Source: Chloroflexota bacterium (GTDB lineage Bacteria > Chloroflexota > Limnocylindria > Limnocylindrales > CSP1-4). Taken from it: 49,933 nucleotides of DNA. The stretch lies in contig JAJZRQ010000012.1 of NCBI GenBank assembly GCA_021802585.1, positions 1 to 49,933 of the forward strand. The letters are read 5' to 3'. This document shows, in pieces, positions 4,187 to 36,967 of the stretch (its first letter is position 1; every line of letters begins with the position of its first letter). The translations under genes and the position numbers were made by a program. The notes below the pieces were generated by a model. That model was not told the origin of the DNA. It worked only from the letters and a program-made list of their open reading frames with translations, and did no database searches.

Positions 4187-4690
4187 TCACGCCGGGTGCC
4201 GGAGCTGCGGCGCTTCCGCGATCATCGTCTCGAGGTCTTCCTTCGTGAACTCGGCCAGGTTGTGGTGCGCGCCGGCCTGGCCGACGACCTGGAGGCGGAC
4301 GACGTACGACCCGCCCTGCTCGAAGAAGAAGATGTCGTGCGGGCGCTGGCTGTCGATCCAGCGCCCGAGGACGCGGAACGACTTCTCATAGTAGCCCGCC
4401 TTCGACCAGTCGGGCGCGGCGGCGGCCTCGGCGCCGCGGCGCGCGACCGCCTCGTCCATGAACCGGGCGATGTCGTCGTCGAGGAACGTCAGGGTCTCCT
4501 TGACCTGGTGCCCGACCGCCTCCGACCACGTCCCCTGCTGGCCGCCCTCGACGACGAGGCCCTGGACGATGAACCCGTCGGGGGCCTCGAGGAGGAGCAC
4601 GTCGCGCATCCCTCGCTGGTCGAGGAACGCGCCGATGGAGCGCAGGACCTCCTCGAAGTCCTGGCGAGGGCTTCCCTCGTAGATCCGCAT
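4187..4690 (-). CDS. Uncharacterised 167-residue protein with an internal repeat
   Basis: The ATG at 4690 is preceded by GGGGGAGG at good spacing, so the longer GTG start at 4711 is not used. The protein is soluble and acidic. Two segments of about 35 residues look like diverged copies. The first, near residues 17-48, runs IGAFLDQRGMRDVLLLEAPD then GFIVQGLVV. The second, near 104-135, runs LGRWIDSQRPHDIFFFEQGG then SYVVRLQVV. Each predicts helix, turn, strand, strand. Between them lies a helical linker with WSEAVGHQVKETLTFLDDDI. I do not recognise the family. It lies between the ABC-2 permeases and a small membrane peptide and is probably co-transcribed with both. Confidence 0.75.
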   Translation of the reverse strand: MRIYEGSPRQDFEEVLRSIGAFLDQRGMRDVLLLEAPDGFIVQGLVVEGGQQGTWSEAVGHQVKETLTFLDDDIARFMDEAVARRGAEAAAAPDWSKAGYYEKSFRVLGRWIDSQRPHDIFFFEQGGSYVVRLQVVGQAGAHHNLAEFTKEDLETMIAEAPQLRHPA

Positions 4691-4732
4691 CACGCCTCCC
4701 CCGGCCCGCACGGGCGGGACGATCCCCGGCCC

Positions 4733-5647
4733 TCAGCTGCCGGTCGTCTGGTCGATCAGGCCGCGTTCCCGCGCGATCCGCTCGAAGACGCGGAAGACCG
4801 CCCAACTCCCGAGTGTAAGCACGGCAGTGGTCGCGCACAAGGCGAGAAGGACGCCCGCGTCGGGGATGGACCCCAGGACGCCCGGCGTGGGAACCCCGAG
4901 GAGGGCCCGCCGGACCCCCTCGAGCCACCATGTCGTCGGCAGGACGAGGGCCAACGGCCGGATCGCGGCGGGCAGGACGTCGAGGGGGAAGATCGTGCCG
5001 GAGAGGAGGTAGAGGCCGCCGGCGATCGCCTCCGGGTAGTTCCACGCCTCGCGGCGGATCGTCAGGCAGAGGCCGGCGACGGCAAGGCCGAGGGCGACGA
5101 CCGCGCCGAGGCCGAGCGCCATCGACGCGCCGAAGAGCGGCCAGTCCACCCGGCCGACGTCGATCCGGACGCCGAGGAAGACGACCCCCACGAGGAGGGT
5201 GACGAGGAATCCCGCGGCCGCGGCGAGGAGCTGGGCCGACGCCCGGCCGAGGAGGAACGGCAGGAACCGCGCGGCGCTGACGACGATGTACTTCAGCATC
5301 CGGTAGCGCTCGCGGTCGTCGAGGACGGCCCACACGAACCCGGACATCCCGCCGCCGACGAACGTCCAGCAGGCGCTCCCGACGACGAGGAACGCGAGGT
5401 AGTCCGGCCGGGCTCCGCCCGACACGATCCAGACGATCGCGACGAGGATGAGCGCCGCGCCGACCGGCCGGGCGACGGAGTAGACGGCGAAGAGGAATGG
5501 GTCCGCCCAGTTCGACTCGATCGCCCAGCCGAGCCGGGCGCCCGTCGTGAGCGAGCGCCAGGAGGCCGTGATCCGGTGGGCGGGCGGGGCGTGCTCGCCC
5601 GGCATCCCGGGCCGGTGCCCGTGACGGTCGACGACACGCGCCGTCAC
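4733..5647 (-). CDS. ABC-2 type transporter permease (second subunit)
   Basis: This 304-residue integral membrane protein has about six hydrophobic segments and the ABC-2 signature near the C-terminal third, LYLLSGTIFPLDVLPAAIRPL followed by LPTTWWLEGVRRALLG. Its long cytosolic N-terminus ends in the amphipathic helix that usually contacts the ATPase. The GTG start at 5647 lies 10 bases after the stop of the first permease, so the two are translated from one message and probably form a heterodimer. Length is normal for the class. ABC-2 systems export drugs, lipids or polysaccharides; nothing here fixes the substrate. A 42-base gap separates it from the 167-residue protein. Confidence 0.87.
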   Translation of the reverse strand: MTARVVDRHGHRPGMPGEHAPPAHRITASWRSLTTGARLGWAIESNWADPFLFAVYSVARPVGAALILVAIVWIVSGGARPDYLAFLVVGSACWTFVGGGMSGFVWAVLDDRERYRMLKYIVVSAARFLPFLLGRASAQLLAAAAGFLVTLLVGVVFLGVRIDVGRVDWPLFGASMALGLGAVVALGLAVAGLCLTIRREAWNYPEAIAGGLYLLSGTIFPLDVLPAAIRPLALVLPTTWWLEGVRRALLGVPTPGVLGSIPDAGVLLALCATTAVLTLGSWAVFRVFERIARERGLIDQTTGS

Positions 5648-5657
5648 CGTCCGCCCC

Positions 5658-6605
5658 TCACTGCCAGCGCGCCATGAGCCGGCCCTCGGCGCGAGCCTTC
5701 CGCTCGAAGTACGCGAGGGCGAACCGGGCCAGGACGAGGAAGACGGCGCACATCGCCACGAGGATCGCCGCCTCGGCGGCCGGCGGGAGGACGCCGATGC
5801 CGGTCACCTGCGAGAACGTGAGCTGGCGGATCGCATCGAGGCCCACGGCGAGCGGCAGAAGGCCGATGGCGAGGCCCGCCAGCGGCCCGAGGACCTTCAC
5901 CGGCGCGTAGAGGCCGCCGAGGAAGTAGACGGGCTCCTGGAAGAGGTTCGCGAGGTGCCATGCCTCGCGGCCCCAGAAGAGGAAGAGGCTTGCCATGAGC
6001 ATCCCCAGGCCGTAGAGGGCGACGAGCGTCAGGAGGAAGACGGCCCCGAGGAGGAGCCACTGGTCGATCGCGTACTGGACGCCGAAGAGGATCGACCCGA
6101 CGGCGACGATGACGAGGGCCCGGGTGCCGGACAGGTAGAGGCCGCCGACCGCCATCCCGACGAGGATGCTCATGAGGCTGATCGGGGCGGTGAAGTAGAT
6201 CTCGAGGTTGCCCTCGCCGCGGTCCCAGTAGAGCTGGGCGCCCATCGCCCACAGGACGTTGAGCCAGAACGCGGTCATCGCGCCGCCGAGGACGGCAAAG
6301 CCGACGTACGCCTCGGGCGCCTCCAGGGCGCGGTAGACGAGGACGAAGGCGCACGTCGAGAGGAACGGGAGGGCGATCTCGAAGAAGACCCACGACTTCT
6401 CGCGGAGGCTCCCGCGGACGCGCGGATAGGCGCGCCCCACGATCCCTCGGAGGTTCGTCGCGAGGGTCCGGCGGGCGCTCCACGACGCCGCCTCGCGGGG
6501 GCCCGCGCCGGCGGCGCGGCCGCGAACGGCGGGGTCGGGCGGCGGATCCGGGGCGCCCGGCCGCGGCTCGGGCAGGTGCGGCGACGGCGCGCCCGGGGGG
6601 CTCAT
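5658..6605 (-). CDS. ABC-2 type transporter permease (first subunit)
   Basis: This 315-residue membrane protein has a Pro/Ala-rich, poorly conserved N-terminus of about 45 residues and then six predicted helices. The typical ABC-2 pattern VYFLGGLYAPVKVLGPLAGLAIGLLPL lies near residue 235. The ATG at 6605 overlaps the TGA of the ATPase gene by four bases, which couples their translation. A frame open far upstream through the ATPase on this strand is a shadow of high GC content and is not part of the protein. With the ATPase and the second permease it would form a full exporter. Confidence 0.87.
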   Translation of the reverse strand: MSPPGAPSPHLPEPRPGAPDPPPDPAVRGRAAGAGPREAASWSARRTLATNLRGIVGRAYPRVRGSLREKSWVFFEIALPFLSTCAFVLVYRALEAPEAYVGFAVLGGAMTAFWLNVLWAMGAQLYWDRGEGNLEIYFTAPISLMSILVGMAVGGLYLSGTRALVIVAVGSILFGVQYAIDQWLLLGAVFLLTLVALYGLGMLMASLFLFWGREAWHLANLFQEPVYFLGGLYAPVKVLGPLAGLAIGLLPLAVGLDAIRQLTFSQVTGIGVLPPAAEAAILVAMCAVFLVLARFALAYFERKARAEGRLMARWQ

Positions 6606-7633
6606 CCTTCCTCCGCGGGCGGCGGCGCCTCGTCCGCCTCGTCGAGGCCGCGCCCGACGAGCTCGACGAAGACGTCCTCGAGGGTCGGCTCCGACTTCGC
6701 CAGGCCGCGGATCCGTGCCCCGGCCGCCGTCAGCGCGGCGATGACGGCGGCCAGGGCCCCGTCGTCGGCGAGGACGAGGCTCACCGTGACGCCGTCGGGC
6801 GCCGCCGCGCCCGCGCCCGCCGCCCCAAGGGCCGCGGAGCGCACGCCCGGAAGCCCGACGAGCGTCGCGGGCCCGCCGGGGAGCTGGTCGAGGGCGATCC
6901 GGAACAGCGACTCCTCCTGGACCCGCCGCTTCAGCTCGGAGGGCGTCCCGAGGGCGAGGATCCGGCCCCGGTCGACGATCGCGACGCGGTCGCACAGCTC
7001 GTCCGCCTCGGCCATGTAGTGGGTCGTGAGGAGCGCCGTCCGGCCCGGGACCGCCTCGCGCCAGCTCCGGAAGTGGCCCCGGATGTCGCGGGCCGCGCCG
7101 ACGTCGAGGCCGAGCGTCGGCTCGTCGAGGAAGAGGATCCACGGGTCGTTGACGAGGCTCCGGGCGACGTTCAGCTTCTGCCGCTGACCGGTCGAGAGCG
7201 AGCTGACGCGCTGGAGGCGCTGCTCTCCGAGGCCGACGAGGTCGAGGAGCTCGTCCGTCCGCCGCCAGCCCTCGCGCGTCCCGAGGCCGTAGAACTGGCT
7301 GAACATCCAGAGCTGCTCGCGGACGGTGAGGATTCCGTAGCCCGACTGCTCGCCACCGGCGACCATGTTCATGATCCGCCGGATGCGGACCGTCTCGGTG
7401 ACGACGTCGAAGCCGGCGACGCGGGCGGTGCCCGCGGTCGGGAGGAGGAGGGTCGTGAGGATCTTGATGAGCGTCGTCTTCCCCGCGCCGTTCGGGCCGA
7501 GGAGCCCGAACAGCTCGCCCGCGGGAACCTCGAGGTCGACCCCGTCGAGGGCGACGACCGGGCTCGGCTTCGCCTTGTAGACCCGGCGGAGGGCGCGGGC
7601 CTCGATCGCGGGGCCGGACGGCGCCGACGGCAT
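6602..7633 (-). CDS. ABC-2 system ATP-binding protein
   Basis: This 343-residue nucleotide-binding subunit has Walker A GPNGAGKTT (residues 46-54), a Q-loop near EQSGYG, signature LSTGQ (146-150) in place of the common LSGGQ, Walker B ILFLDEPT (catalytic E171) and switch histidine in TTHYMAEAD. The C-terminal about 100 residues form the extra domain usual for DrrA/CcmA-type exporters and end in PTLEDVFVELVGRGL. The ATG at 7633 is chosen over a GTG one codon upstream. It heads a minus-strand operon of ATPase, permease, permease and two uncharacterised genes. The family exports lipids, antibiotics or polysaccharides; no self-resistance gene is present to narrow this down. Confidence 0.92.
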   Translation of the reverse strand: MPSAPSGPAIEARALRRVYKAKPSPVVALDGVDLEVPAGELFGLLGPNGAGKTTLIKILTTLLLPTAGTARVAGFDVVTETVRIRRIMNMVAGGEQSGYGILTVREQLWMFSQFYGLGTREGWRRTDELLDLVGLGEQRLQRVSSLSTGQRQKLNVARSLVNDPWILFLDEPTLGLDVGAARDIRGHFRSWREAVPGRTALLTTHYMAEADELCDRVAIVDRGRILALGTPSELKRRVQEESLFRIALDQLPGGPATLVGLPGVRSAALGAAGAGAAAPDGVTVSLVLADDGALAAVIAALTAAGARIRGLAKSEPTLEDVFVELVGRGLDEADEAPPPAEEG

Positions 7634-7792
7634 CACCGGGCGGCCACGGCGATCGGAGCGGTGCTCGTGCCGCGGCGCGTCCCGAGAGACGCGACGAGGA
7701 CGACCGCCACGGGCGCGGCGGGCGCGGCGGGCGATCGACGACGGCGAGGCACGAGCGACTCCTCCGAGCAGGCGACGGGACGGGCCCGTCCG
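7634..7792. other. Intergenic region between the ABC ATPase start and psuG 3' end
   Basis: This 159-base stretch carries the upstream region of the exporter operon and the downstream end of psuG, both on the minus strand. It is rich in GGCGCGGCGGGC-type simple runs. I see no convincing hairpin with a T run and no clear TAnnnT box, so neither a terminator nor a promoter is called. Confidence 0.4.
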
Positions 7793-8764
7793 TCAGCCCC
7801 GGGCAAGGGCAGCGGCGAGGCGGCCGGCGACCCGGGCGTCGTTCACGATGAGGGAGGTGTTGGCCCGGATGGAACGACCATCCGTCAGGTCCGCGACGCG
7901 CCGGAGGACCCACGGCGTGAGGGCCGGCCCGTGGATACCGGCGGCCTCCGCCTCGCCGGTGGCGCGCGCGATCGCGGCGACCGCCTCGTTGCGCGGCAGC
8001 TCGTCCGCCGCCGGGACCGGGATACAGAGGAGGACGCCGCTCCCGACGAGCGCCAGGTGCGCCGCCGCGAGCGCGGCCGCCGCGGCCTCGTCGGGGACGG
8101 ACTGCGGAGCCGCGATCCCGGATCGCCGCGAGAAGAACCCCGGCAGCTCGTCCGTGCCGACCGCGACGACGGGGACGCCGCGCGTCTCGAGGACCTCGAG
8201 CGTCGCCGGGACGTCGAGGATCGCCTTCGGGCCGGCGCAGACGACGACGACCGGGGTCCGGGCCAGCTCCTCGAGGTCGACCGACACGTCGAGGCTCGGC
8301 GGCCGCGGTCGCCCGTCGGGCCCCGCCGAGGGCTCGAACGCGCCGGGGTGGACGCCGCCGATCCCGCCGGTGGCGAAAGTGCGGATTCCCGCCGCGTGCG
8401 CAACGAGCATCGTCGCCGAGACGGTCGTCGCTCCCCAGCCGCCGCTCGCGAGGGCGCCGGCGAGCGTGGGCCGGGCCACCTTGCGGACCCCCTCGGTCGT
8501 GGCGAGAGCCTCCAGGGCAGCCGCCTCGAGCCCGACGAGGATCCGGCCGTCGCGGACGGCGACGGTGGCCGGGACGGCGCCGCTCTCGCGGACCGCGGCC
8601 TCGGAGGCGGCGGCGACCTCGACGTTCTGGGGGTGCGGGAGGCCATGGCTGATGAGCGTCGACTCGAGGGCGACGACGGGCCGGCCGGCGGCGAGGGCCT
8701 CGGCGACCTCGGGCGCGACGTCGAGCCGGGCGCGGAGGGCGGAGAGGCGCGGGTCCACGATCAC
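7793..8764 (-). CDS. psuG: Pseudouridine-5'-phosphate glycosidase
   Basis: This 323-residue enzyme of the indigoidine-synthase-A-like family has the N-terminal motif VVALESTLISHGLPHPQN (E34), the central FATGGIGGVHPGA, and CAGPKAILDVP with K180, which matches the Schiff-base lysine of E. coli PsuG. It reversibly cleaves pseudouridine 5'-phosphate to uracil and ribose 5-phosphate. The product could enter the pentose-phosphate genes 6 kb away. No PsuK-type kinase is adjacent, although an unassigned PfkB kinase lies at 12.2-13.2 kb. The start is GTG at 8764, 6 bases after a TACGCT box, so the mRNA is probably leaderless. It is divergent from the S9 peptidase across only 38 bases. Confidence 0.93.
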   Translation of the reverse strand: MIVDPRLSALRARLDVAPEVAEALAAGRPVVALESTLISHGLPHPQNVEVAAASEAAVRESGAVPATVAVRDGRILVGLEAAALEALATTEGVRKVARPTLAGALASGGWGATTVSATMLVAHAAGIRTFATGGIGGVHPGAFEPSAGPDGRPRPPSLDVSVDLEELARTPVVVVCAGPKAILDVPATLEVLETRGVPVVAVGTDELPGFFSRRSGIAAPQSVPDEAAAAALAAAHLALVGSGVLLCIPVPAADELPRNEAVAAIARATGEAEAAGIHGPALTPWVLRRVADLTDGRSIRANTSLIVNDARVAGRLAAALARG

Positions 8765-8770
8765 GACGCC

Positions 8771-8776
8771 AGCGTA
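8771..8776 (-). promoter_or_regulatory. -10 box TACGCT of psuG (leaderless)
   Basis: On the minus strand TACGCT is followed by six bases and then the GTG at 8764. There is no room for a Shine-Dalgarno leader. This fits the pattern seen at seven other genes in the window. Confidence 0.6.
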
Positions 8777-8789
8777 CCAAGCCCCGGGC

Positions 8790-8795
8790 TACTGT
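8790..8795 (+). promoter_or_regulatory. -10 box TACTGT of the S9 peptidase (leaderless)
   Basis: TACTGT ends seven bases before the ATG at 8803. It lies within 20 bases of the opposing psuG -10 box, so the two promoters are packed back to back in a 38-base gap and may compete. Confidence 0.55.
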
Positions 8796-8802
8796 TCGTC
8801 CC

Positions 8803-10947
8803 ATGATGGCCCGATCGATCGCCCCAGCCACCCTCATCCGCCGCCAGGTCGTCCTCGAGGAGCACGACCCGCTGCCCGACGGGAGCGGCGCCGTCGTCGT
8901 GCGCCGCATCGTCCACGGGGACACGTACCGCTCGCACCTCCTCCTCGTCGACGTCGCGGCCGGGCGCCGGATGCGCCCTCCGCGCCCGCTCACGACCGGA
9001 GCCGTCCGCGACACGCGGCCACGCGTCGCGCCGGACGGCCGCCGGGTGGCGTTCCTCCGCTCCTTCCCCGGCGACCCGGAGCGGCCGGCCGCGGTCATGG
9101 TCCAGGCGCTCGACGGGGGCGAGCCGTGGGTCCTCTGGGCGCCGGAGCACGGTGTCACGGAGATGGCGTGGTCCCCCGACGGCCGCCGCATGGCGTTCGT
9201 GGCGGCGGCGCCCGAGGCGCCCTCGATCGTCGGGAGGGAGGTGAAGGGCCGGGTCGTGACCGCGCGCCGGATCGACCGGACGGACTGGCGCCGGGACGAG
9301 GTCGGGCATCACGACCGCTGGGATCACGTCTGGGCGGGCCCCGTCCGCCCCGACGCCCGGCCCCGCAGGCTGGCCCGCCAGCACGCCGACGCCACGGGGA
9401 TCGCGTGGTCGCCGGACGGTCGCTGGCTCGCCTTCGTCGCCGACCCGCGGCCCGCGGCCGACATCCGGCCGCTCCCCTCGATCTGGGTCGTGCCCGCGGG
9501 CGGCCCGGGCGGGCGGGCGCAGGGCGCGGCCGGTGGCGCCGCCGGTGGCGCGCCCCGCGAGGCCGTCCGCCTCGCCGGGTACGCCGGCGCGCCGGCCTTC
9601 TCGCCCGACGGCCGGTGGATCGCCTGCGTCGGGGTGGACGTGCCGGACCCACTGGACGCGGAGAGCCCCGGCGTCTTCGTCGCCCCGTTCGACCCGGCGG
9701 CGGGCGACCCGGCCCCGGCCGTCGCCCTCGCGCCGGACCTCGATCGGCCGGTCGGCGCGTGGTGCGACACGGACCTCAACGGCTGGATGGCGTCGTCCCG
9801 GCCCGGCCCGTGGTGGGACGGCCCGCAGGATCTCGTCGCCCTCGTGAGCGAGGCCGGCCGGGTCCGGCCGTGGCGCTTCCCGTTCGACCCGCGGACCGGC
9901 GGGCCGGCCGGCGCCGCGCAGCGCCTCGTCGACGCCGAGATGACCGCCTGGACGCTCGGGGTCGGCGGCGGGATCGTCTCCGTCGTGGCGACGCTCGACG
10001 ACCGGCCGATGGAGTTCCTCACCGTCGGCGGGGGCGCGGCGGGCGCGGATGCCGCGGGCGCGCGACGGGACGGGGCGCCGGAGCGCCGCCGGGCGCCGGC
10101 CCGCGCCACGGCGGTGCCGCGGACGACGGCCGGCGGCGCGTGGCGGCGCGGCCTCCCGTGGCCGGAGATGCGCCGGACGCTTGCGCCCGGGGCCGGCGGA
10201 CCGATCGAGACGGGGATCGCGTCGCCCGCGGGCGCCGGCGACGCTCCCCTTCCAGCCGTCGTCGACGTCCACGGCGGCCCCCTGGGGGCGTGGTCGCCGG
10301 CGCCGTCGCTCGAGCACGTCCTCCTCGCCGCGCGCGGCTACCGGGTCGTCCTGCCGAACATCCGCGGCTCGGCCGGCTACGGGCGGTCGTGGATCGCGCC
10401 GCAGCTCGGCGACTGGGGCGGCGTCGACGCCGCCGACGTCCTCGCCGCGGTCGACCACGTCGTCGGCCTCGGCCTCGCCGACCCGGCCCGGCTCGGGATC
10501 CTCGGCCTCTCCTATGGCGGATTCATGGTGAACTGGCTCGTCGGCGCGGTGCCGCAGCGGTTCGCCGCCGCGGTGTCCGAGAACGGCGTCACGAATCAGG
10601 TCAACGGCTGGGCGAACTCGGACTCCGGCCCCGAGTACTGCCGGATGGCGCTCCTCGGCGACCCCCTCTCCGAGGACGGGGTCGCGAAGCTGTGGCGCCA
10701 GTCGCCGCTGCGGCTCGCCGCCCGAGTCCGGACCCCCCTCCTCCTGCTCCAGGGCGAGGCCGACCTCCGCTGCCCGGCGGCCGACAACGAGCAGCTCTTC
10801 GTCGTCCTGCGGCACCTCGGACGCGAGGTCGAGTACGTCCTCTATCCCGAGTCATGGCACACGTTCGCGATCACCGGGCGCCCGGACCGCCGGATCGACC
10901 GCAACGAGCGGATGCTCGCCTGGTTCGACCGCTTCCTGAAGGCGTAG
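8803..10947 (+). CDS. S9 family peptidase (prolyl oligopeptidase / acylaminoacyl-peptidase type)
   Basis: The protein has 714 residues. The first about 450 form a TolB/DPP-like beta-propeller with repeated WSPDGR-type blades (MAWSPDGRRMAFV, IAWSPDGRWLAFV, AFSPDGRWIACV). The C-terminal alpha/beta-hydrolase domain starts near PAVVDVHGGPLGAWSP. The catalytic triad is visible as S570 in GLSYGGFM, D654 in LQGEADLRCP and H686 in ESWHTF. It should cleave short peptides in the cytosol; no signal peptide is present. The ATG at 8803 follows a -10 box by seven bases, which suggests a leaderless message. Length and domain order are normal for the family. Confidence 0.92.
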   Translation: MMARSIAPATLIRRQVVLEEHDPLPDGSGAVVVRRIVHGDTYRSHLLLVDVAAGRRMRPPRPLTTGAVRDTRPRVAPDGRRVAFLRSFPGDPERPAAVMVQALDGGEPWVLWAPEHGVTEMAWSPDGRRMAFVAAAPEAPSIVGREVKGRVVTARRIDRTDWRRDEVGHHDRWDHVWAGPVRPDARPRRLARQHADATGIAWSPDGRWLAFVADPRPAADIRPLPSIWVVPAGGPGGRAQGAAGGAAGGAPREAVRLAGYAGAPAFSPDGRWIACVGVDVPDPLDAESPGVFVAPFDPAAGDPAPAVALAPDLDRPVGAWCDTDLNGWMASSRPGPWWDGPQDLVALVSEAGRVRPWRFPFDPRTGGPAGAAQRLVDAEMTAWTLGVGGGIVSVVATLDDRPMEFLTVGGGAAGADAAGARRDGAPERRRAPARATAVPRTTAGGAWRRGLPWPEMRRTLAPGAGGPIETGIASPAGAGDAPLPAVVDVHGGPLGAWSPAPSLEHVLLAARGYRVVLPNIRGSAGYGRSWIAPQLGDWGGVDAADVLAAVDHVVGLGLADPARLGILGLSYGGFMVNWLVGAVPQRFAAAVSENGVTNQVNGWANSDSGPEYCRMALLGDPLSEDGVAKLWRQSPLRLAARVRTPLLLLQGEADLRCPAADNEQLFVVLRHLGREVEYVLYPESWHTFAITGRPDRRIDRNERMLAWFDRFLKA

Positions 10948-32950: not shown

Positions 32951-35137
32951 TCAGCGGGCCGGAGTCGCGGGTTCCGGCTCCTCGTCGGCGCCGTCGTCGG
33001 CGGCCGTGGGGCCCCGGAGCTCCACGACGCGGTCGGCGGCGCCGTCGTACCGGTCGAACGTCGTCAGGTAGACGACCTGGAAGTCGGAGGCGAGCTCGCG
33101 GAGGAGCGCGATCGCCCGGGCGGCGCGCTCGTCGTCGAACGTGACGAACGGGTCGTCGAAGACGAGCGGCGGGCGGCGGTCCTGGGTCACGAGGCGGACG
33201 ATCCCGAGCCTCGCCGCGAGGTAGCCGAGGTCGAGGGTCCCCTGCGAGAGGTCGTCGAGGCGGACCCAGTCGCCGCGCTCAGGGGCGAAGACCCGGATGT
33301 CGAGCGTCGCGTCGTCCACGTCGACCCGACGGTACCGGCCCGCGGTGAGGCGCGCGAGGTCGGCCCGCATTCGCTTCTCGAGGTAGCGCGTCGCCGTCCG
33401 CATCGTCGAGCTCTCGGCCCGGCCGATCGCCTCGAACGCCTTCTGGTAGACGCGCTGGCGGCGCTGGAGGGAGGCAAGCTGCTCCCGCCACGCCACGAGC
33501 CGCTCCGCCTCGCCGGCCACCTTCTCGGCGTCCACCGGGCTCTGCTCGACCCGCGCCCGGGCCCCCGCCTCGTCGTCGCGGGCGCGCTCGAGGGCCGCCT
33601 CCTGGTCCCGGACCTCGACCTCGAGGCGCTCCCGGGCGCGGGGCTCCTTCGCGATCGGGCCGAGCGCCTCGAGGGCCGCCGTCTTCTGCTCGATCGCGAG
33701 CGCGGCGGCGTCGCGGATCATCGGGAGCGTCTCGACGGGCTCCTTCCCGACGAGGCCGTCGAGCTGGGCCGCCGCGCGCTCGATCGCCTGGACGTGGGCG
33801 TCCTCGCGGGCGAGGAGGTCCTCCGCCGCCGGCGGGTCCGGCACCGCGAGCGTCCCGAGCTGCGCGGCGACATCCGCCTCCCGGCGCCGCAGGTCGTCGG
33901 CGAGCTGGCTCCGTCCGCGGAGGCGCCGGGCGATCTCCTCCTCCCGGAGCTCCTTCTGACGCCGGAAGTCGAAGGCGGCCCGGCGGCGGGCCCGGGCAAC
34001 GAGCGCGAGGAGGAGGCCCACGCCGGCGGCCGCGGCGCCCGCGGCGATCGCGGCCGTGACGCCCGCCACGACGCCGACGGCCACTGCGGCGACGCCGCCG
34101 GCAGCGAGGAGGAGGGCGAGCCAGGCAAACGGGCGGTAGCGCGGCTCGGGGATGACGACCTCGTAGTCGACCGAGACGGGCTCGCCCTCGAGCTGGGCGC
34201 GCAGCCCGACGACCTCCCGGTCGAGGGCGCGGATCCGCTCGACGATCTGGCGGAGGACCGGGAGGGGGTTCGACGACGGGTGGCTCCCCTCGAGCTCCGC
34301 GACCCGGGCGGCGACGGCGACGGCCTGCCGGTACCGCTCGAAGCGCTCCTGGGCCGCGAGCCGCTCGGCGCCGAGCCGCTCGGCCTGGCGCGCCTTCTCG
34401 AGGAGGGCGCGCCGCTCGACGAGGGCGTGCTCGGCGGCGGCCCGGCGCTCGCGGGCCACCACGAGGGCGTCGCGGTCGCGCTCGAGCTGCGCCAGCTGCG
34501 CCTCACCCTGGGCGACCGTGGCGTCCGCGCGGGCGACGGCTTCCTCGGCGACCCGCAGGCGGCCGGGGTTCCGCTCGCCGCGCGCCTGGAGCTCGCGGAG
34601 GGCGCGGTCGAGGCGCCGCTTCGCGACGCTCGTGCCGCGGTCCGCGCCGCTGATCGAGGCCTGGAGGCGATCGCGGAGGGCACCCTCGTCGCGGGCGAGG
34701 TCGAAGACCTCGTGGTGGTGGATCGACGCCGTCGAGCGGTAGAACTTCTCACCGGGGATGCCGGTGAGGTCGGCGAGGACCTCGTCGGCGCGGGCGGGAT
34801 CCGTGATCGTCTCGCCGTCGAGCTCGAGCTTCACGACGCCCTTCGCCCCGCGGAAGTCCTTCTCGAGGTGGCCGGTCCGGGTCCCGTCGGGGTCCTCCTG
34901 GACGAAGTCGATCGCGACCCACGGGCGGCCGTCCTCGGCGGCGCCCCAGCTGCGGAGCCCCTCGATCTCGGCGCCGCCTGCCGTCACGCGGCGGAAGAGC
35001 GCGACCTCGAGCGCCCGCTGGATCGTCGTCTTGCCAGCCTCGTTCGGCCCGCGCACGACCGTCAGGCCCGGCGCGAGCTCGACGTCGAGGTCGCGATGGA
35101 CCTTGAGGTCACGGAGCCGGAGGCGGGTGATCCTCAC
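32951..35137 (-). CDS. SbcC/YhaN-like SMC ATPase with a central membrane hairpin
   Basis: This 728-residue ABC-type SMC-like ATPase has Walker A RGPNEAGKTT (29-38), a coiled-coil arm at about 180-315, two adjacent transmembrane segments at about 337-382 (WLALLLAAGGVAAVAVGVVAGV then a Gly/Ala-rich helix ending LLLALVARARRR), and a second coiled coil at about 385-575. The signature LSQGTLDLGYLA follows (629-640), then Walker B PLVFDDPF (657-664). In SbcC the arm is longer and soluble; YhaN-like proteins keep such membrane segments. It would pair with the adjacent SbcD-like nuclease and tether a DNA-repair complex to the membrane. The GTG overlaps the nuclease stop (GTGA). Confidence 0.85.
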   Translation of the reverse strand: MRITRLRLRDLKVHRDLDVELAPGLTVVRGPNEAGKTTIQRALEVALFRRVTAGGAEIEGLRSWGAAEDGRPWVAIDFVQEDPDGTRTGHLEKDFRGAKGVVKLELDGETITDPARADEVLADLTGIPGEKFYRSTASIHHHEVFDLARDEGALRDRLQASISGADRGTSVAKRRLDRALRELQARGERNPGRLRVAEEAVARADATVAQGEAQLAQLERDRDALVVARERRAAAEHALVERRALLEKARQAERLGAERLAAQERFERYRQAVAVAARVAELEGSHPSSNPLPVLRQIVERIRALDREVVGLRAQLEGEPVSVDYEVVIPEPRYRPFAWLALLLAAGGVAAVAVGVVAGVTAAIAAGAAAAGVGLLLALVARARRRAAFDFRRQKELREEEIARRLRGRSQLADDLRRREADVAAQLGTLAVPDPPAAEDLLAREDAHVQAIERAAAQLDGLVGKEPVETLPMIRDAAALAIEQKTAALEALGPIAKEPRARERLEVEVRDQEAALERARDDEAGARARVEQSPVDAEKVAGEAERLVAWREQLASLQRRQRVYQKAFEAIGRAESSTMRTATRYLEKRMRADLARLTAGRYRRVDVDDATLDIRVFAPERGDWVRLDDLSQGTLDLGYLAARLGIVRLVTQDRRPPLVFDDPFVTFDDERAARAIALLRELASDFQVVYLTTFDRYDGAADRVVELRGPTAADDGADEEPEPATPAR

Positions 35138-36309
35138 AGCGTCACCTCGCGGCCGTCGAGGAGGAGTCGCGCCAGGCGGAGCGCCTCCCGCACCTCGCGG
35201 GCCTCGTCGTCGCGGCCGCCCGCCTCGCGCTCGGCGATCTCGGCCTCGAGGTCCCGGACGAGGGCTCCGGCGATCGTATCCGGCGGCGGGAGCGGCCCTT
35301 CGGGCAGCGCCGCCGTCGAGGCGTCGCGCACCCGGACGCGGAAGAAGCGGGCGGCCACCTCGCGCTCCACCTCGTCGGGGGAGAGGTCGAGCTCGTCGGG
35401 ACGGACCCCCGTCACCCGGACATCGAGGACGAGGTCCGGGTCGGCCCGGGCGACGATCTGCTCGACGAGAGCCGGCTGGCCGGGGATCTCCGTCGCGGCG
35501 ACGTCCAGGCGCTCGAACCGCGTCCTCCCGACCCGGCGCTCCTCGACGGCGACGTGGCGGCCACGGTCGCGCTGCTCGAGGGCGACGAGGAGGACGTTCC
35601 CCGCCTTGTCCTGGTCGACCGCGACCGGCTCGGGGGCCCCGCTGTACGCCCACACGGTCGCCCCGGCGCGACCCCGCTGGGTGGAGTGCCAGTGCCCGAG
35701 CGCGAGGTAGTCGAGGTGCGAGCCGGCGACCTCGTCGCTCGTGAAGACGACCTCGTCGTGCTCGGTCCGCTCCGGGATGTGGAGCGAGCCGTGGATCATC
35801 CCGACGTGCCACGTCGCCCGGTCGTCGCCGGCGACGTCGAACCCCGCGAGGGGGCTCCGCGGCGCCCGCTTCGTGGCGAAGACCCGCCCGTGGACGGCGA
35901 GGTCGAGCTCGCGGATGACGACGTCCGGACGCTCCGGCGTGAGCACGACGATCCGGTCCGCGTCGGGCGGGAGGCCGGCGAGGGCCGCGAGGTCGTACGC
36001 CCGGTAGACGGACGCCCCGTCGTAGACGTCGTGGGTCCCGGGGATCACGACCGTCCGGATGGCGCCGTCGGCGAGGCGCCGGAGCTCGGCGGCGACGCGC
36101 TCCACCGAACGCCGCGGCTGGGTGTTCGAGTCGAAGAGGTCGCCGGCGACGAGGACGACGTCGACGCGCTCCGCGAGGGCGAGGTCGACGGTTGCCCGGA
36201 AGGCCGCGAACTGCCGCTCGCGCTGCGCGGCGGCCTGCTCGCCGAGGTCGGCGTGGCGGGCTCCGAGGTGAACGTCGGCCGTGTGGAGCAGGCGGAGCAT
36301 TGCGGGCAT
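35134..36309 (-). CDS. SbcD/Mre11-like metallophosphoesterase (DNA repair exonuclease)
   Basis: This 391-residue calcineurin-like nuclease has metal-site motifs HTADVHLG (D12, H14), GDLFDSN (D57), a third motif GTHD (91-94) in place of the canonical GNHD, MIHGS, and GHWHSTQ. The Asn to Thr change removes a usual metal ligand, although the flanking His is kept. The C-terminal half contains a capping domain with EVAARFFRVRVRD and a helical tail. The ATG at 36309 is used; an ATG at 36300 is also possible. It is upstream of and overlaps the SMC-like partner, the normal order for an SbcD-SbcC pair. Confidence 0.85.
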   Translation of the reverse strand: MPAMLRLLHTADVHLGARHADLGEQAAAQRERQFAAFRATVDLALAERVDVVLVAGDLFDSNTQPRRSVERVAAELRRLADGAIRTVVIPGTHDVYDGASVYRAYDLAALAGLPPDADRIVVLTPERPDVVIRELDLAVHGRVFATKRAPRSPLAGFDVAGDDRATWHVGMIHGSLHIPERTEHDEVVFTSDEVAGSHLDYLALGHWHSTQRGRAGATVWAYSGAPEPVAVDQDKAGNVLLVALEQRDRGRHVAVEERRVGRTRFERLDVAATEIPGQPALVEQIVARADPDLVLDVRVTGVRPDELDLSPDEVEREVAARFFRVRVRDASTAALPEGPLPPPDTIAGALVRDLEAEIAEREAGGRDDEAREVREALRLARLLLDGREVTL

Positions 36310-36628
36310 TGTGACAAATCGGGAGGGCGGCGGCGAGGTGCAGGCCCGGGCGGCACGACAGCCGCCGGGACGCGCCCCGGGCAGGCGTCCGGGACGCGCG
36401 GGCGGCAGGCCCCCGGGAGGCCGCGCGCACCCCGTCCTCGCGAGCACCCCGTCCGGGAGGCGGTGCTATCCTCCCCTCACGCAACCGGTGCGCGCCCCGA
36501 GAGGTCCGCCAGCACGTCACCCGGGTCGCGCGGCACCAGGCTCCTTCCGCCTTCCCCGCCGCCCCGCCGCGACGGAGGGCCATCCGGGACGACCGCCGGC
36601 GGCGAGCGCACGGACCTGGAGGAGCACC
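36310..36628. other. Divergent region between the SbcD-like gene and the zinc-ribbon gene
   Basis: This 319-base gap has no gene I trust; the open plus-strand frame here is high-GC background. It contains a TATCCT box at 36467-36472 and a leader of about 150 bases to the TTG start of the zinc-ribbon gene. The leader has a C-rich run but no riboswitch that I recognise. Confidence 0.45.
36467..36472 (+). promoter_or_regulatory. -10 box TATCCT upstream of the zinc-ribbon gene
   Basis: TATCCT in GCTATCCTCCCC context would give an unusually long leader of about 150 bases before the TTG start. The same core is used at the PfkB and RDD genes. Confidence 0.45.
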
Positions 36629-36967
36629 TTGACGTACATCGACCGAACGCTCACCTGCGTCGACTGCGGCATGAGCTTCACCCACACCGCGGCCGACCAG
36701 GAGTACTACGCCCAGAAGGCGTTCACGTCCGATCCGAAGCGCTGCCCGAGCTGCCGGGCGAGCCGGCGCGTCGCGCGCGGCGACGGGTGGGACGTGCGCA
36801 GCATCGGCGGCCCGCGCGGCTATGAGCGCGGAGGTGGGTCCGTCGACCGCGAGTACTTCGCCGTCACCTGCTCGCGCTGCGGCAACAACGCGCAGGTCCC
36901 GTTCAAGCCGCGCCTCGACAAGCCGGTCTACTGCTCCGACTGCTTCCGGGCGATCAAGGCCGGCTGA
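36629..36967 (+). CDS. CxxC-x17-CxxC zinc-ribbon protein
   Basis: This 112-residue soluble protein has two zinc-ribbon units. The first has CVDC near residue 10 and CPSC about 37 residues on; the second has CSRC and CSDC about 20 residues apart. It fits the CxxC-x17-CxxC type found in many uncultured bacteria. The middle is Gly/Arg-rich (RGDGWDVRSIGGPRGYERGGG), which suggests nucleic-acid contact. The start is TTG at 36629: GGAGGAG lies 5-6 bases upstream and the first Cys pair follows at once, while no ATG or GTG is in reach. This is the only TTG start in the window. The function is unknown. Confidence 0.82.
   Translation: MTYIDRTLTCVDCGMSFTHTAADQEYYAQKAFTSDPKRCPSCRASRRVARGDGWDVRSIGGPRGYERGGGSVDREYFAVTCSRCGNNAQVPFKPRLDKPVYCSDCFRAIKAG

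Follow-up and report, generated by a model that had tools for sequence, protein, structure and literature searches.

We lean, if only slightly, towards reading a gene pair in a 49,933-nucleotide stretch of Chloroflexota DNA (contig JAJZRQ010000012.1 of assembly GCA_021802585.1, positions 1–49,933; hereafter the window) as a membrane-tethered relative of SbcCD/Mre11–Rad50 that is distinct from canonical SbcCD as well as from the YhaO-type systems and has an altered nuclease metal site. Mre11–Rad50 complexes are usually viewed as soluble, dimerised through a hook and dependent on fixed metal ligands. The initial annotation of the window had seen an SbcCD-like pair here, and the pair does consist of a Mre11/SbcD-fold nuclease next to a Rad50-like ATPase.

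The nuclease gene (35134–36309, on the reverse strand, as are all features of the pair given below; 391 amino acids, aa) comes first and is followed by the gene for a Rad50/SMC-type ATPase (32951–35137; 728 aa), whose GTG start overlaps the nuclease stop by 4 bases. Many relatives of the nuclease begin at the Met equivalent to Met4 of the window protein (36300). Pfam places the nuclease in Metallophos and the ATPase in AAA_23/AAA_27. The pair was compared with two sets of relatives: (i) the best 80 of 261 relatives (hereafter the 80 loci), whose named genomes are 79 Chloroflexota, with titles including Candidatus Limnocylindrales and CSP1-4, and one Actinomycetota (locus L151); and (ii) 32 wider relatives, i.e. 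seven from other Chloroflexota families and 25 made up of L151 and genomes of its phylum, Actinomycetota. L151 stands in both sets, and the wider set omits L221 (a member of Limnocylindrales) and L222 (the same locus as L151). Counts over the 80 loci include partial ones (L122 and L150 without motif I, and L149, which is shortened). The two genes overlap or adjoin in 75 of the 80 loci, the remaining five being interrupted by contig ends, and the 4-base overlap recurs in 47 of these 75.

The AlphaFold2 (AF2) model of the nuclease, made from 28 aligned rows (predicted local distance difference test, pLDDT, 92.3), has a Mre11 fold. All of the 50 best rows listed by Foldseek are Mre11 or SbcD, and the best match is Pyrococcus furiosus Mre11 (Z 26.4; root-mean-square deviation, rmsd, 3.8; 288 residues aligned). 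The score against the SbcD model TIGR00619 is 70.2 bits (67.3 in the genome search), below the curated cut-off of 77.65, and among the NCBIfam models listed none is over its cut-off for the nuclease or the ATPase, SbcD being the nearest. The motifs read D12-x-H14, G56-D57-LFD, G91-T92-H93-D94, H173 and G205-H206-W-H208. Mapped to Mre11/SbcD, D12, H14, D57, H93, D94, H173, H206 and H208 are intact, and Thr92 (codon 36034–36036) takes the place of the metal-ligand Asn of GNHD, so that residues 91–94 read GTHD; this is the substitution that the initial annotation had pointed out. A passage of PMC3175470 describes the metal motifs of the SbcD family as DXH..GDXXD..GNHD/E, a description from which the window nuclease and most of its clade depart at GTHD and to which they conform at the other motifs. 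In the 32 wider relatives D9, H11, D54, H90, H170, H203 and H205 (numbering of alignment A1, used below for all losses) are kept in every row that covers them, and D91 is kept in 31, with Glu in one. Because these other ligands are kept, metal dependence most likely persists in the nucleases of most members; their intactness over two phyla would be unexpected for a dead site, and we therefore favour a site that is active but altered.

The Thr is widespread among relatives of the pair. The residue is T in 75 of the 80 loci (D in three, G and P in one each, N in none) and in 31 of the 32 wider relatives, the last having N; the nuclease of L245, for instance, reads GTHD. The initial annotation had asked whether Thr is common at this site in active SbcD: among the best 30 of the 72 canonical SbcD proteins of the phylum that exceed the cut-off, Asn is present in all 30 and Thr in none. 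As the Thr is clade-wide and both reading frames are intact, drift or a pseudogene was rejected. Thr also recurs outside the clade at L201, where a distant SbcD-like nuclease with GGTHD (4731–6059) adjoins an ATPase of ∼1300 aa (6082–10032) that is of the membrane type and keeps the switch His.

Phylogenetic trees place the window nuclease in a clade of its own. The main tree contains 78 nucleases, with the motif-III residue masked, including 16 rows labelled A and six canonical SbcD (and without L211–L214, L217, L218, L235, L252 and rows of <240 aa). In it a clade of 47 rows (support 96/84, from a bootstrap that had not settled) contains T in 39 rows, N in one (L190), D in two and other residues in five; the T label requires six changes on the tree against 26.2 in shuffles. 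YhaO-type nucleases and canonical SbcD are grouped together across a 100/96 branch from this clade. A first tree of 76 nucleases, with every second canonical SbcD and without A_L147 and O_L194, agrees, and in both trees the nearest large group to the clade is a set of nucleases with DxQ in motif I (hereafter DxQ-type). Bacillus subtilis YhaO is in neither tree; YhaO-type rows were recognised by the motif DLHLDSPF, which we take to be a mark of that type.

These trees bear on the proposal, close to the grouping with YhaO/YhaN made in the initial annotation, that the pair is an ordinary YhaO/YhaN (SbcEF) orthologue as in Bacillus with one drifted residue. Such an orthologue would have the same plan, a metallophosphoesterase with an ATPase that carries a hydrophobic hairpin in mid-coil, and AAA_27 does match the window ATPase above its cut-off (32.5 bits versus 22). 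That match spans residues 1–48 only, whereas in two YhaN-type partners AAA_27 scores 60–66 bits over residues 1–191 and 1–194. In both trees, starred branches separate the nuclease from the YhaO-type clade. Relatives with both pairs hold them at separate loci, and the ABC switch (H-loop) His, absent from the window ATPase, is present in 11 of the 16 membrane ATPases outside the clade in which the site can be read. We thus consider the YhaON explanation unlikely, and the grouping is not supported; from the sequences, the window pair appears to be separate from YhaON/SbcEF, though the plan is shared.

The ATPase model (25 aligned rows; pLDDT 84.9; predicted template modelling score, pTM, 0.50) predicts a Rad50/SMC head made from both ends of the chain, with long helices joining them. 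The head matches Rad50 (3qku) with Z 28.6 (rmsd 7.0; 334 residues aligned), tied with SMC (28.0) and cohesin (27.9). The window ATPase and most of its relatives retain the Walker A, signature and Walker B motifs. In a profile alignment to Methanocaldococcus jannaschii Rad50, residue 141 (His141; 34715–34717) falls on the Q-loop Gln position and T/S on the switch His position, where the window reads TTF (residues 692–694; 33056–33064) and relatives TTS or similar; the labels Q-loop and switch His follow general usage for ABC ATPases. No switch His occurs at any of three possible positions in the 67 of the 80 loci that reach them, nor in the only 7 of the 32 wider relatives in which the site is readable, most Actinomycetota loci ending inside the ATPase. 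Judged from these alignments, its loss is old in the clade, though not exclusive to it. Position 141 is H in 69, Q in five and R in one of the 75 readable members of the 80 loci, and Q in 22 and H in eight of 30 wider relatives; Q-to-H here appears to be mostly a Limnocylindrales change. With the switch His absent, turnover by the ATPase is probably slow or takes a different path.

The coiled coil of the ATPase is predicted to end in a membrane hairpin (aa 334–385; 33983–34138). The only strongly hydrophobic stretch of the protein is aa 335–383, with a mean hydropathy peak of 2.51 versus 1.01 elsewhere; 16 of 2000 shuffles of the ATPase reach this value, i.e. composition alone rarely yields such a stretch. 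The model resolves it into helices 334–358 and 361–∼385, joined by a turn of two residues and placed at the tip of the coiled coil, the position of the Rad50 zinc hook, in line with the two transmembrane segments between coiled coils that the initial annotation had described. A mid-protein hydropathy peak of 2.23–2.96 is present in 25 of 25 aligned ATPases, where the sequence is poorly conserved, and a hairpin in 28 of 30 wider relatives with the ATPase in view (L245 is shortened and L246 has none in the covered part). The hydrophobic stretches carry few charges (5.6 K+R and 1.1 D+E per 100, over 1308 residues) and lead into a basic flank (30.7 K+R per 100). A zinc hook at the apex was ruled out, the window ATPase having no CxxC; CxxC is also absent from many SbcC-type ATPases. 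As a prediction, the replacement of the zinc hook by a membrane hairpin is well supported.

Several observations weigh against the membrane-tethered reading or some part of it. The N-terminal flank of the hairpin is acidic (21.4 D+E and 4.2 K+R per 100), a poor fit to the positive-inside rule on that side and less clear evidence that this side is cytoplasmic, and predicted membrane insertion rests on hydropathy and on a model with pLDDT mostly of 72–75 there. The Thr position is not frozen: one clade member has N (L190) and some have D, G or P. The L190 nuclease (4570–5808) thus reads GNHD inside a GTHD clade, which is probably a reversion and offers a natural T-to-N comparison. L246, one of the 31 T rows, is placed beside the DxQ group, outside the clade, and L216 is a second T row outside it; therefore T is either older than the clade or was gained more than once. 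Loss of the switch His is shared by most readable DxQ-type pairs and by five of the 16 readable membrane ATPases outside the clade (L067, L197, L208, L209 and L216). Finally, we take residue 97 of Rv0805, a distant metallophosphoesterase, to be the counterpart of the GNHD Asn. A passage of PMC3776917 calls the N97A variant of Rv0805 catalytically inactive; by analogy this suggests that Thr could cripple the site, which makes reduced or lost nuclease activity a live alternative.

A further alternative is that the hairpin is a soluble or dimer-forming apex and not a membrane anchor. Its place at the dimerisation position of the Rad50 zinc hook, its short turn and the acidic flank would suit such an apex; a stretch of ∼50 residues with hydropathy peaks of 2.2–3.0, few charges and then a basic flank, recurring in two phyla, argues for an anchor. 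We regard a soluble apex as improbable.

The Rv0805 analogy bears on a different alternative, in which Thr abolishes catalysis and the complex is a nuclease-dead membrane tether, an SMC-like clamp between DNA and membrane with the Mre11-like subunit as a structural dimer. Besides the missing switch His, this alternative draws on three sublineages of Limnocylindrales in which further nuclease residues are lost and the pair is retained: (i) L056, whose residues match those of L148, has lost T89, H90, H170 and H203, and in L057, a relative of L056, position 89 is D and position 203 is G; (ii) L058 has lost T89, H11, H90, H203 and H205, and the related L221 lacks T89, D9, H90, H203 and H205; and (iii) L147 has lost T89, D9, H11, H203 and H205. 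L147, which is in neither tree, was assigned to the L055 lineage by identity (66% to L055 and L144); in L055 and L144–L146 the T is replaced by D or G and the site is otherwise intact. In the ATPases of these site-loss sublineages Walker A and the hairpin remain, and the C-terminal nuclease columns are conserved over the 28 rows of A1 (R371 nearly, L374 and L381 fully). At least in these sublineages, to judge by the residues retained, the pair seems to have a task for which cutting is not required.

An alternative for the same sublineages is slow loss of the whole complex: L058 has an altered signature (Gly) and L056 an altered D-loop (Asp) in the ATPase, so that decay there may touch more than the nuclease. 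This, the confinement of the losses to lineages inside one family and the retention of the other ligands in the 32 wider relatives of two phyla, unexpected for a dead site, make a nuclease-dead tether doubtful for the clade as a whole. A less extreme possibility, which we put forward only tentatively though with more confidence than the dead tether, is that the pair belongs to a branch, spread over Chloroflexota and Actinomycetota, whose main job has become the ATP-gated retention of DNA at the membrane and for which cutting is optional, the hook having become a hairpin, the switch His having been lost and an otherwise near-invariant metal ligand having become Thr; the three sublineages would already have given up more of the cutting site.

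Returning to the favoured reading, a membrane-tethered complex with an altered but active site, we propose the following mechanism. Two ATPase heads would bind a nuclease dimer through the C-terminal helices of the nuclease, as expected from the fold. From the heads, coiled coils would reach the inner face of the membrane, each ending in the predicted two-helix hairpin instead of a zinc hook. By analogy with SbcCD, ATP-driven opening and closing of the heads may then give the nuclease access to hairpins, DNA ends or protein-blocked ends that are held at the membrane. Because Thr replaces Asn, the second metal site would be weakened or re-tuned, and since the nuclease site has eroded further in three sublineages, cutting may be dispensable for part of the job. 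We infer, then, nuclease–ATPase binding, membrane anchoring, ATP cycling and a membrane-located action on DNA ends or hairpins, and the complex would be, as the initial annotation had imagined, a DNA-repair nuclease sitting in the membrane. The clade provides a natural series with which to ask what in such a machine serves tethering and what serves cutting, and it may show how blocked ends and hairpins are dealt with in bacteria that lack canonical SbcCD.

The pair is nearly universal in the family of the window: an orthologue is present in 35 of 37 genomes (E ≤ 1e-60), G022 and G024 having only other types. No nuclease match was found in the 19 small genomes of a neighbouring family (f2; G037–G055, 0.8–1.2 Mb) of the same order. 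Of 400 sampled genomes of the phylum, 92 match at E ≤ 1e-15, and outside the family seven match at E ≤ 1e-55; in the phylum of L151, 25 of 296 genomes, including that of L246, have a match at E ≤ 1e-60. The SbcD cut-off is reached by 72 of 151 genomes overall versus none of seven members of the family. In the window's own genome (95.9% complete, so that a missed copy is possible) there is a single nuclease match even with the threshold relaxed to E 10, and none over the SbcD cut-off. The remaining matches of the ATPase profile are weak and correspond to SMC, RecN and an ABC transporter; no paralogue or canonical SbcCD was found. Being the only SbcCD-like pair found there, the window pair probably does the work of SbcCD in its own genome.

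A divergent gene upstream of the nuclease (36560–36967, forward strand) encodes a treble-clef zinc protein (zf_Tbcl + zf_Tbcl_2), and a zf_Tbcl protein is found upstream in 66 of the 71 loci with enough upstream sequence. Downstream neighbours include an EamA transporter in 42 of 62 loci and an S51-type peptidase in 32 of 62. Synteny is mostly within one family, and no function could be drawn from these neighbours.

Distribution and neighbourhood also bear on whether the pair serves defence against incoming DNA and not housekeeping repair. A membrane position would suit DNA entry, and the ATPase has weak PADLOC matches (mad3, 60 bits; Lamassu LmuB, 48 bits over partial stretches). The nuclease, by contrast, matches no PADLOC model at E 0.001, the partner of the ATPase is an SbcD-like nuclease, and near-universal presence in the family (35/37) with stable neighbours is unlike patchy defence genes such as Lamassu. 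A defence role is thus very improbable, the least likely of the explanations considered here.

Among known systems, SbcCD of Escherichia coli and Mre11–Rad50 share with the window pair the Mre11 fold, all ligands but one, the Rad50-type head and the pairing of the genes. They differ from it in that the window pair lacks CxxC and the switch His, has a predicted hairpin and T in GNHD, and scores below the SbcD cut-off.

SbcE/SbcF (YhaN/YhaO) of B. subtilis resemble the pair as a metallophosphoesterase with a Rad50-like ATPase, and YhaO-type pairs of Chloroflexota have an ATPase with a mid-protein membrane segment, as predicted for the window ATPase. Compared with YhaO/YhaN, the window nuclease belongs to another clade and has Thr for Asn, and the window ATPase lacks the switch His; it is also shorter than two YhaN-type partners (728 versus 943 and 1133 aa). 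SbcE is said to carry a membrane domain in the middle of the ATPase. The initial annotation called the role of YhaN little known, which is not quite so: in B. subtilis, SbcE/YhaN has reportedly been linked to the repair of breaks and to competence.

DxQ-type pairs (L059–L063, L192, L215, L219 and L220) are the nearest large relatives in the tree. The switch His is absent from five of seven readable members (L059, L060, L063, L219 and L220) and kept in L192 and L215. They differ from the window pair in that (i) GNHD is kept (GNHE in L061) with DxQ in motif I; (ii) motif V is GDRH in L059–L063, L219 and L220; and (iii) the ATPases seen have no mid-coil membrane hairpin. L059–L063 come from the window's family, and four of their genomes contain a window-type pair as well. 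No paper or family model for the clade and its altered sites was found in family libraries or the open-licence full-text literature. A membrane segment in an SbcC-like ATPase is already known for SbcE/YhaN; it is the clade itself and its altered sites that the literature searched did not show.

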